Shown here one piece after another: positions 53,422 through 56,741 of a stretch of 64,000 nt of DNA. Both the position numbers and the translations under genes were made by a program. The notes below the pieces were generated by a model. That model was not told where the DNA came from, did no database searches, and saw only the letters and a program-made list of their open reading frames with translations. Source of the DNA: Fodinibius roseus (lineage in GTDB: Bacteria; Bacteroidota; Rhodothermia; Balneolales; Balneolaceae); assembly GCF_900129315.1 (NCBI RefSeq), contig NZ_FQUS01000003.1:1-64000 (forward strand), read 5' to 3'. Each line of letters opens with the position of its first letter. The stretch's first letter is position 1.

Positions 53422-55056
53422 CTACATCTGTTCCGGGGCGCTGATCCCCAATATCGTCAGTCCGTTGGCCAGGACCCGGGCGGTGGCCTCTGCCAGTACG
53501 GTTCGCGCCTGGACCAGCTGCTCCTTTTCGCCAAGAATGCGGCAGTCGTGGTAAAAGGAGGTAAAATGCGAGGCCAGGTCATCCAGGTAGTTGATCATTC
53601 GATGCGGTTCGCGGCTTTCGGCGGCGCTTTGAATCATCTCAGGAAAGCGAATGATGCTTTTGATAAGTTTTTTTTCAGATTCGTGAGTCAGCCGCTCCAG
53701 CTCGGGAGCATCTTCAAAGGCGTACTCCTGCTCTACTTTTCTCAGGATACTGTGGATACGGGCGTGAGCGTATTGCAGGTAAAAAACTGGATTCTTTTCG
53801 CCCTCCGCCTTGGCTTCGGCAACGTCGAATTCCAGATGCGTGTTGGGTGCCCGCATCAAAAAGAAGAAACGGGTGATATCCGGGCCCACCTCATCCATCA
53901 GCTCATCAAGAGTAATAAAATTGGCCTTCCGTGTACTCATCTTGAACGGCTTGCCCTCCTTGACAATAGTGACGAACTGGTAGACAATCACATCCACCCT
54001 GGAACGATCGTATCCCAGAGCTTCGATACCGGAAAGTACATCGGGATAGGTATCAATGTGATCGGCGCCAAAGACGTCGATACACTGATTGTAGCCCCGG
54101 TCGAGCTTATTGGCATGGTAGGCAATGTCGGGGAGGCGATAGGTTGGCTCCCCGCTGCTTTTGATAAGCACAGTGTCTTTATCTTTGCCAAAACGGGTGG
54201 TTCGAAACCAGGTGGCCCCGTCTTTGTCGTATGCCAAATCTTGTTTACGGAAAGTTTCAATGACCTTCTCGATGGATCCGTCATCGTAGACTTCCTGCTC
54301 GTTGAAGAACGAATCCATTCTAATGTTCATTCGCTGCAGCGTAGCCTGGATCTCTTCAAAGATGAGCTGTTCGGCTTTCTCCTTAAAGGCGGTCGTATCA
54401 TCGACGTTGAGAAGGCTCTCGCCGTGTTCTTCTACTAACGAACGGGCGATTTCGCTGATATATTCGCCTTCATAACCATCCTCCGGCAGCGCTGCTTCCC
54501 GCCCCAGTTCCTGCAGGTAGCGCGCCCGTACACTCTGTCCCAGTATACGCATTTGACGGCCGGCATTGTTGAAATAGTATTCGCGATCAACCTCGGCGCC
54601 GGTCCACTCCAGCAACCGTGCAACCGTGTCGCCCAACACGGCATTGCGTCCATGTCCGACGGTCAGGGGGCCGGTGGGATTGGCGCTGACAAACTCAATA
54701 AGAATACGATTGCCGCTGAGCGTGGCGGTCTTTCCGAAATCCCGGCCTTGCTTTAAAACATGTTGAAGCTCATCGTAAAGGTAGTCTTCGGCATAGCGGA
54801 AGTTGATAAAACCGGGACCCGCAATTTCTACAGCTTTAATCTTTTTGGGATCATACTCCAGTTTTTGCACAATTTCTTCTGCAATGCTTCGGGGATTCGT
54901 TTTGAGTACACTGGACAGATTGAGGGCAATATTCGAGGCTGAATCCCCGTGACCGGGCTGGTTCGGTTTTTCTATCTGGATATCGGGAAGTTCCTCTTCA
55001 GAAAGGTCGAACTGTTTCAGAGCGGATCTTAAAATGGAGCGTAGGTAGTCTTTCAT
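53422..55056 (-). CDS. argS: Arginyl-tRNA synthetase
   Basis: A 544-residue class I synthetase. The signature HIGH-like motif is SANPTGPLTVGHGRN, and the KMSK-like motif is KMSTRKANF. The N-terminal additional domain (residues 1-100) and the C-terminal DALR anticodon-binding domain (ending RVLANGLTILGISAPEQM) are present. Essential housekeeping gene; the small mobile four-helix gene lies just upstream. Confidence 0.97.
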   Translation of the reverse strand: MKDYLRSILRSALKQFDLSEEELPDIQIEKPNQPGHGDSASNIALNLSSVLKTNPRSIAEEIVQKLEYDPKKIKAVEIAGPGFINFRYAEDYLYDELQHVLKQGRDFGKTATLSGNRILIEFVSANPTGPLTVGHGRNAVLGDTVARLLEWTGAEVDREYYFNNAGRQMRILGQSVRARYLQELGREAALPEDGYEGEYISEIARSLVEEHGESLLNVDDTTAFKEKAEQLIFEEIQATLQRMNIRMDSFFNEQEVYDDGSIEKVIETFRKQDLAYDKDGATWFRTTRFGKDKDTVLIKSSGEPTYRLPDIAYHANKLDRGYNQCIDVFGADHIDTYPDVLSGIEALGYDRSRVDVIVYQFVTIVKEGKPFKMSTRKANFITLDELMDEVGPDITRFFFLMRAPNTHLEFDVAEAKAEGEKNPVFYLQYAHARIHSILRKVEQEYAFEDAPELERLTHESEKKLIKSIIRFPEMIQSAAESREPHRMINYLDDLASHFTSFYHDCRILGEKEQLVQARTVLAEATARVLANGLTILGISAPEQM

Positions 55057-55103
55057 GTAGATTGTTTACTGTCTTTAAATTCAGGCGTCAATATAAGCAG
55101 TAG

Positions 55104-55494
55104 AATTAGGAATTGAGAATTAGGAAATAGGATTTTTTGAGCGTTTTTATAATAGAGCCAATAATTTTTAAAATTTCATTACAATCGGATAGCAATGATG
55201 CAGCTAAGTGAGAATTTAGAAATCCTGTATCCCGTAATAAACGCAACCAGTAATGAGTTTCGCGCCCTTCTTTATAAGCAATTGATAATTTTGATTTAAA
55301 ATCGTTTTTGGACTCTGCTCCTACGGCTTCCTCTGCATTAGCACCAATAGAGGTTCCACTTTTTAAAATCTGGTTAGATAAAATATATTCTTGGTGTTCT
55401 TTAGCCAGTGATTGATGGAGTTGCACAATTCTTACGGCAAAAGCATATGTTTTCTCCAATATGATATTTCGCTTTTCATTCTTAATTCCTAATT
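55104..55494. mobile_element. Four-helix-bundle (IVS-protein) element with 17-bp inverted ends
   Basis: The left end AATTAGGAATTGAGAAT (55104-55120) and right end ATTCTTAATTCCTAATT (55478-55494) are inverted repeats with one mismatch in 17. The left end encodes the last codons and stop of the internal gene (its stop at 55106). The right end supplies the last Asn codon and TAG stop of radC (55489-55491). The element carries no transposase, so movement would need an enzyme from elsewhere. Family knowledge: TIGR02436 genes occur as intervening sequences in 23S rRNA genes and as scattered short genes. Confidence 0.75.
55106..55459 (-). CDS. Four helix bundle protein (23S rRNA intervening-sequence protein family)
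   Basis: A 117-residue protein of the TIGR02436/S23 ribosomal-protein-like family, which folds as a four-helix bundle forming pentamers. Family landmarks are FAVRIVQLHQ, ILKSGTSIGANAEEAVGAESKNDFKSKLSIAYKEGRETHYWLRLL and the short helical tail. The first canonical start is TTG at 55459, but the family N terminus (about KNEKRNIILEK) is encoded just upstream in the same frame with no ATG, so start selection is unusual. The gene fills the mobile unit between argS and radC. Role unknown; it is not required for radC or argS by any visible logic. Confidence 0.9.
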   Translation of the reverse strand: MEKTYAFAVRIVQLHQSLAKEHQEYILSNQILKSGTSIGANAEEAVGAESKNDFKSKLSIAYKEGRETHYWLRLLRDTGFLNSHLAASLLSDCNEILKIIGSIIKTLKKSYFLILNS

Positions 55495-56208
55495 AAGTAG
55501 TCCTTTTGCGCGGAAGCTGGTATAGCTGTCGCCGGCGACAATGAGATGGTCGTCCACGGGGATGCCGAGCAGTTTTCCAGATTTGGCGATGCGATTCGTG
55601 AGCTGAATATCTGCTTTCGATTCTTTATTCTGTCCACTGGGATGATTGTGCAGCAGTAGTATACTGTTGGCCTCATTCATTACGGCCTGGCGCATAACTT
55701 CGGCGGGATCTACAATGGTAGCCGTTGCACCCCCGGAGCTGATCTTTTTATAGCCCGTTACAATCTTGGCATTGTTCAGGAATGCGACCAGAAATACCTC
55801 TTTGGTAAGATCTCGGAGTTTGGGCCCGAAATAGGCAATGGCATCCTCCGGTGATGTTATTTGGACCTGTTCGCCCAGCCGGGCAACCTGGATGCGACGT
55901 GAGAGCTCAAATACCGCTTCCAGCGTGAGGGACTTTACGTTGCCCATCCCGGGGATGATCTTCAGATCCTGCCAGTCTTTGCGGGCCAGGTAGCGGATCC
56001 CGTCAAAGTGATCGAGGAGGGCTTTGGCCATCTGAATGACATTCATCTTTTGGCTGCCGGTACGCAAAAGAATGGCAAGCAGTTCGGCATCCGACAAACT
56101 CTCGCTGCCGTAGTTCATCAGTTTTTCGCGCGGTTGTTCATCGGGATTCATCTCCTTGACGGTTCTCCTGAAGAATTCGCTGGATTCAAACTGTTCTCTG
56201 TCAGACAT
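55489..56208 (-). CDS. radC: RadC/JAB-domain protein
   Basis: A 239-residue protein with an N-terminal HhH-like domain (GMGNVKSLTLEAVFEL) and a C-terminal JAMM/MPN+ domain. The metal signature HNHPSG is at 187-192 with the later Asp at 200. The historic DNA-repair role is doubtful; JAMM enzymes are peptidases or similar hydrolases. The ATG at 56208 has AGGAAG eight bases upstream and is preferred to the longer frame from 56247. The last sense codon and stop are built from the inverted end of the adjacent mobile element. Confidence 0.93.
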   Translation of the reverse strand: MSDREQFESSEFFRRTVKEMNPDEQPREKLMNYGSESLSDAELLAILLRTGSQKMNVIQMAKALLDHFDGIRYLARKDWQDLKIIPGMGNVKSLTLEAVFELSRRIQVARLGEQVQITSPEDAIAYFGPKLRDLTKEVFLVAFLNNAKIVTGYKKISSGGATATIVDPAEVMRQAVMNEANSILLLHNHPSGQNKESKADIQLTNRIAKSGKLLGIPVDDHLIVAGDSYTSFRAKGLLN

Positions 56209-56252
56209 AATAATTCTTCCTGTTATATTAATGTTTATATATTCCATAGAGG

Positions 56253-56395
56253 GCTTTGCAAAGCCGTTCTTTTGTCCGATCTCTGCATTTTCGCAAGCTC
56301 AAAACTCTTATCATATGCCTTTATATGCTTTGGCTTTGAATTTGCTCAGGCTTTGACATTGATCAAGAGTCCTGGTTTTTCCCTGGTTTTTCAAC
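56253..56395 (+). repeat. Dispersed palindromic element, copy 5
   Basis: The left end GGCTTTGCAAAGCCG (56252-56266) is inverted to a degenerate right end CCTGGTTTTTCAACGCCC. The right-end segment CCTGGTTTTT is duplicated (56371-56380, 56382-56391). The inner arms GCAAGCTCAAA and TTTGAATTTGC pair at 9 of 11 positions plus a G-T wobble. It lies just upstream of radC. Confidence 0.72.
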
Positions 56396-56741
56396 GCCCC
56401 CTGGTTATAGGGTCGTTATTCGTTCATTGCAAGGTGGTTATTGGAAAGGTTGACAAGCAAGACATCTGTTAAAGATGAACAGGCGCCTCCCAAATAGCAG
56501 ATACCCGGTAGTTAATATCCTTGCTCATAAATTCAGCCGGGGCTGTAATACGAAACACAGCTTTCTTTAAATGATTATATCATCAATCTATTTAGTAAGA
56601 GCCCCATAAGGACCAATCCTTACAAAAAATTTTGCCAATGGTATGAAAGGCACTACCTGCGCCGCAGCGGCCGGCCGTAAAGGGAGGAAGAGTAAGAAGT
56701 TGAACGGGCGAGTGGAAATGCACCGGCCACCGGTCAAACGC
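56396..56741. other. Non-coding gap downstream of the DnaQ-like gene
   Basis: No convincing gene, hairpin or repeat was found in this stretch. A basic 117-codon frame (56643-56996) overlaps the minus-strand nuclease gene and looks spurious. Confidence 0.4.

Follow-up and report, generated by a model that had tools for sequence, protein, structure and literature searches.

A putative mobile cassette of a four-helix-bundle gene and inverted heptamer arrays at the radC–argS junction of Fodinibius roseus

The window analysed here, the first 64,000 nt of contig NZ_FQUS01000003.1 of Fodinibius roseus, holds between radC and argS a small element with inverted terminal repeats. This element is probably one copy of a class of mobile cassettes of ~0.4–0.55 kb, which would be the gene-end counterpart of the intervening sequences (IVS) of 23S rRNA genes and would be moved by their own four-helix-bundle (4HB) protein. 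The class is widespread and apparently unnamed; a cassette would consist of one 4HB gene flanked by inverted arrays, each family having a private repeat unit of 7 nt (sometimes 8 nt). Sequence comparison documents the dispersal of these elements, the movement of gene and arms as a unit, filled and empty sites, a seat at stop codons, homogenisation of the two arms and the existence of gene-less derivatives. Among open-licence papers, none was found that links 4HB genes with heptamer arrays in general.

The element between radC and argS

The features of the locus, whose gene order on the minus strand is radC, 4HB gene, argS, are the following.

53422–55056, minus strand: argS, the host gene downstream of the 4HB gene and co-directional with it; this synteny is also found in relatives
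55103–55132, plus (inward-reading) strand: argS-side terminal array, GAATTAG GAATTGA GAATTAG GAAATAG GA
55106–55459, minus strand: 4HB gene (four-helix bundle, TIGR02436/PF05635 by profile matches), with a TTG start and an N-terminus that is probably disturbed
55474–55494, minus strand: radC-side terminal array, reading AATTAGG AATTAAG AATGAAA from 55494 to 55474
55489–56247, minus strand: radC, the host gene upstream of the 4HB gene, with its 3' end inside the radC-side array
56594–56625, minus strand: TTGTAAGG-N18-CTTACT motif 5' of radC, a putative promoter or operator

A preliminary description had reported a 17-bp inverted repeat with one mismatch around the 4HB gene, and this was borne out: the arms at 55104–55120 and 55478–55494 are 17 nt each, complementary at 16 of 17 positions and 357 nt apart. 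The coordinates also agree with its statement that the repeats encode the ends of both proteins, as the Asn codon (55494–55492) and TAG stop (55491–55489) of radC lie within the radC-side arm, and the 3' end of the 4HB ORF with its TAA stop is encoded by the complement of the argS-side array. Each arm is part of a longer heptamer array of the GAATTAG type, and the ends are not the single fixed 17-bp sequence that had been supposed; every family has its own, fast-changing heptamer array.

The protein matches TIGR02436 with 104.3 bits (cut-off 24) and PF05635 with 88.2 bits (cut-off 33.8), its nearest solved structure is 2rld (E=1.9e-26), and it has no recognised catalytic domain. No in-frame ATG is present where the start is expected, and by-eye comparison with congeners indicates that the N-terminus was seemingly shifted by a one-base change; this copy may use the TTG start or be lightly decayed. 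It is the only PF05635 gene in the 5.1-Mb genome (G000). The same genome carries four more RadC-like genes (C21, C36, C54 and C16), mostly consisting of the C-terminal domain.

In relatives, 4HB genes occupy the radC–argS junction in G002, G003, G004, G006, G008, G011, G013, G016, G017 and others; the radC-site copies are decayed in G006, G007 and G011, and only gene-less remnants are left in G001 and G005. In G009 and G010 the radC stop site is taken instead by a gene for a GxxExxY (PDDEXK_3) protein, which is bounded by a different inverted repeat, AACGCAGATGACACGG... (L059 and L056). An apparent right-end remnant of a GxxExxY cassette also adjoins the 4HB element of G003. The 4HB proteins of 13 radC sites, drawn from several genera, group in a single clade (support 0.84), so that the element is old at this site. 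Within the genus, the 4HB subtypes are discordant with the RadC+ArgS tree, which suggests that the locus was exchanged or the element re-inserted; the arms vary among species, yet they match within the elements of G003, G016, G017, G008 and G004. Comparison of the junctions had been proposed beforehand as a check; the fresh insertion at radC that had been envisaged does not fit the single clade across genera, the decay, the deletion remnants and the replacement.

Shared architecture and gene-less arrays

The main sample comprised 131 4HB loci from relatives, with ORFs called mechanically; these loci are phylogenetically non-independent, 227 pairs having common flanks. A second sample of 79 loci was drawn from Bacteroidota, Balneolota, Ignavibacteriae, Acidobacteria, Sulfurovum and Halanaerobacter. 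In the 131 loci the best left–right inverted match had a median score of 30, compared with 17 in mismatched left/right pairs, and the autocorrelation of the arms over shuffles reached z=42 at lag 7 and z=19 at lag 8, with at least one arm beyond the 99th percentile of shuffles in 84 elements; the several phyla of the second sample gave z=47 at lag 7. More than 60 distinct heptamers were found. At unrelated sites, the arms match in at least 90% of pairs whose proteins are at least 70% identical, and in ~1–2% of pairs below 50% identity. Between 50 and 70% identity, left and right arms of one element are more similar (~32) than right arms of different elements (17–23), indicating that the arms are homogenised. 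As RNA, the arms can pair in a hairpin (z=-4.4); folding of the whole element gave no added stability over shuffles (z +1.6). The protein has a median dN/dS of 0.07 and is hence under purifying selection. On Planktothrix plasmids (L182, L183) a 4HB gene has a helicase/drmD gene on one side and an MmeI-like gene on the other, in a DISARM region.

The window heptamer also occurs away from the gene; a search for the ends with and without it had been proposed as a check. In G000 about eight sites carry the array, all but one lacking the gene and two of them forming inverted pairs with a short loop, and a reversed control pattern gave no matches. Across 12 genomes of the genus there were 13 array matches in G000, 24 in G004 and 0–10 in the others; the two genomes with the best-preserved type-A gene are those with the most window-heptamer arrays (1/66). 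Among 12 array sites fetched from G004 and G003, the array edge lay no more than 14 nt from a stop codon in six, and the array at L390 spans exactly the gap from the stop of one gene to the ATG of the next. Two loci of G004 (L384, L386) are nested: the outer inverted pair is of GAATTAG, and heptamers of another family lie within it.

Heptamer arrays have been described in other bacteria. In Xanthomonas and Nostoc the GGGAATC and GGGGA(C/T)T arrays are mostly intergenic, often in inverted pairs, abut or overlap coding-strand stop codons and are rare between divergent genes (PMC4692102), and the 7-nt TAACTGA arrays of Beggiatoaceae are mostly intergenic (PMC4679880). Both were described as simple, G-quadruplex or regulatory repeats, with no link to 4HB genes or mobile elements there (PMC4692102, PMC4679880). 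Such plentiful arrays, treated as simple repeats, could mean that the heptamers are products of slippage piling up in intergenic DNA, around a 4HB gene that is only incidentally placed between inverted copies, and the numbers and types of heptamers do vary among the Planktothrix strains of L182 and L183. This reading is very improbable: inverted pairing far exceeds that of the mismatched controls, the arrays covary with the protein lineage, and AG is found in 103 of 136 consensus heptamers where 72 are expected.

Mobility and seating behind stop codons

Filled and empty sites were recognised across the genus, all of these comparisons, junctions included, being between species: intervals of 565, 632 and 531 nt with the element correspond to 70–98, 178–219 and 91 nt without it, and at one of the three sites other congeners carry gene-less arrays or a native gene. 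The 3' end of cysQ hosts two families, one of them sister to elements located between cysD and cysN (gene names assigned by reading translations). The median distance from the arm edge is 3 nt where a stop codon faces it (n=100) and 31 nt where a start does (n=84; p=1e-7), and of 97 elements just 2 are flanked by divergent genes. This agrees with the earlier idea that the cassettes are dispersed and have definite ends, which abut or overlap the stop codons of host genes. The stop codon keeps the register of the heptamers (identity at +7 of 0.47, against 0.27 in the control), and TAG accounts for 41% as opposed to 23% (p=0.008). Insertions would survive mainly behind stop codons because an array supplies triplets resembling stops, in register with its unit, and leaves the start signals of the next gene intact; selection against hitting start signals may be part of the seating bias. 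A stricter rule, by which the array brings stops in all frames, fails for families such as AGCTATC and AGAATTC.

The seat after stop codons inside operons, the vertical persistence of the radC–argS 4HB gene across genera, the arm hairpin predicted for RNA and the strong purifying selection are what one would also expect if gene and arms formed a non-mobile host module, an intercistronic hairpin for RNA processing or regulation selected in operons. We regard this as unlikely, given that empty sites exist, different families occupy one site, gene and arms move together between unrelated sites, gene-less copies occur, and decay or loss of the element leaves the neighbours undamaged. Movement of the cassettes may be mostly horizontal or rare, and their spread is mainly between genomes, since the nearest relatives of a 4HB copy are almost always in another genome. 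No recent transposition was seen, only 1 of 317 within-genome pairs exceeding 80% identity; in a search of plasmids and phages no match reached 60% identity with the window protein, and the few inspected included no pair with and without the element.

Mode of movement and relation to other small elements

The 4HB protein would read its own array and move the cassette, most likely in the form of folded single-stranded DNA and in cells that take up or recombine DNA, and it would likewise act on cognate gene-less arrays. The preliminary description had proposed mobilisation in trans. A reverse transcriptase would be one candidate, as the 4HB protein resembles Avd of diversity-generating retroelements, a homologous four-helix-bundle fold matched weakly and below the cut-off (21.9 bits, cut-off 80); a Y1/RAYT transposase would be another, as Y1_Tnp occurs in 29 of the 41 genomes that have PF05635 and in 1 of the 18 that do not, a correlation in which phylogeny and the overall load of mobile elements are confounding factors. 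Either enzyme seems an improbable driver. Reverse-transcriptase matches are absent from genomes with 5–13 4HB copies, such as G002, G014, G017, G027, G028 and G032, and Y1 matches are absent from the equally 4HB-rich G002, G007, G009 and G017, so that neither finds support as a requirement for movement; moreover, the private arrays speak against one common enzyme. The existing evidence favours action of the element's own protein on its cognate arrays, those without a gene included.

Among known elements, the closest likeness is to the 23S rRNA IVS, that of Coxiella having the same protein family, a length of ~430 nt and terminal inverted repeats that form a stem (PMC4990558). Three tandem heptamers (GACAGAT) ahead of the ORF have been noted for that one element (PMC4990558). 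The window element has the S23p/4HB ORF inside terminal inverted repeats that characterises an IVS, but it lies between radC and argS instead of in a 23S rRNA gene. Whereas an IVS sits in an rRNA helix and is excised by RNase III, the cassettes described here occupy the 3' ends of protein genes, have private arrays in many families and leave gene-less derivatives. With RAYT genes and their REP/REPIN sequences they share a small gene, private terminal repeats and non-autonomous derivatives, but RAYT proteins are Y1 HUH enzymes, their ends are palindromic and REP-like with no 7-nt period, and G000 has no Y1_Tnp match. The Y1_Tnp genes of Balneolaceae (L217–L235) mostly have the palindromic REP-like ends typical of RAYT, different for each gene. 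No reverse transcriptase adjoins the window element, as one would in a diversity-generating retroelement, and the sole match in G000 is on another contig. Nor does the element hold the DDE or other transposase of an insertion sequence, the 4HB gene being its only gene. The GxxExxY cassettes, found at the radC site of two congeners, similarly have a single small gene and private inverted arrays, but their protein is an unrelated one with a nuclease fold and their units measure ~9–12 nt.

A further motif, GTAAGG-N18-CTTAC, lies 5' of 44 of the 131 4HB genes (at most one mismatch), with a spacer almost always of 18; being near-palindromic, it gives near-matches on the reverse strand too. Outside Balneolota it is scarce (4 of 79 loci). 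Exact copies in G000, G003, G004 and G010 (L347–L380) precede comEC, a ComEA-like gene, comM, recA, recN and radC, as well as Y1 transposases, GIY-YIG and GxxExxY genes, a tyrosine recombinase and one 4HB gene; the motif is also found with some GxxExxY cassettes and some RAYT-type genes of this genus. This gene set constitutes an apparent regulon, whose content suggests a response to DNA uptake or DNA damage. The window 4HB gene has no motif of its own and follows radC, which carries one; lying in the same direction, it would share the putative promoter of radC. The motif is ~350 nt from the radC start in the window (56248–56593) and ~30 nt in G003 and G004, possibly owing to an insertion between promoter and gene in the window genome.

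More tentatively, the 4HB, GxxExxY, GIY-YIG and Y1 cassettes might be a guild that uses the promoter of a transformation or recombination regulon and moves as folded single-stranded DNA during DNA uptake. A solved 4HB homologue, the S23p-type Xcc0516 of Xanthomonas campestris, is a ring-shaped pentamer; in such a guild, a ring of this kind might read one 7-nt unit per subunit, with the private heptamer as an identity tag. The cassette reading would explain together the nature of the 23S rRNA intervening sequences, the scatter of PF05635 genes and the heptamers at stop codons of unrelated bacteria, and would tie very small mobile elements, in a testable manner, to the DNA-uptake or recombination regulon.
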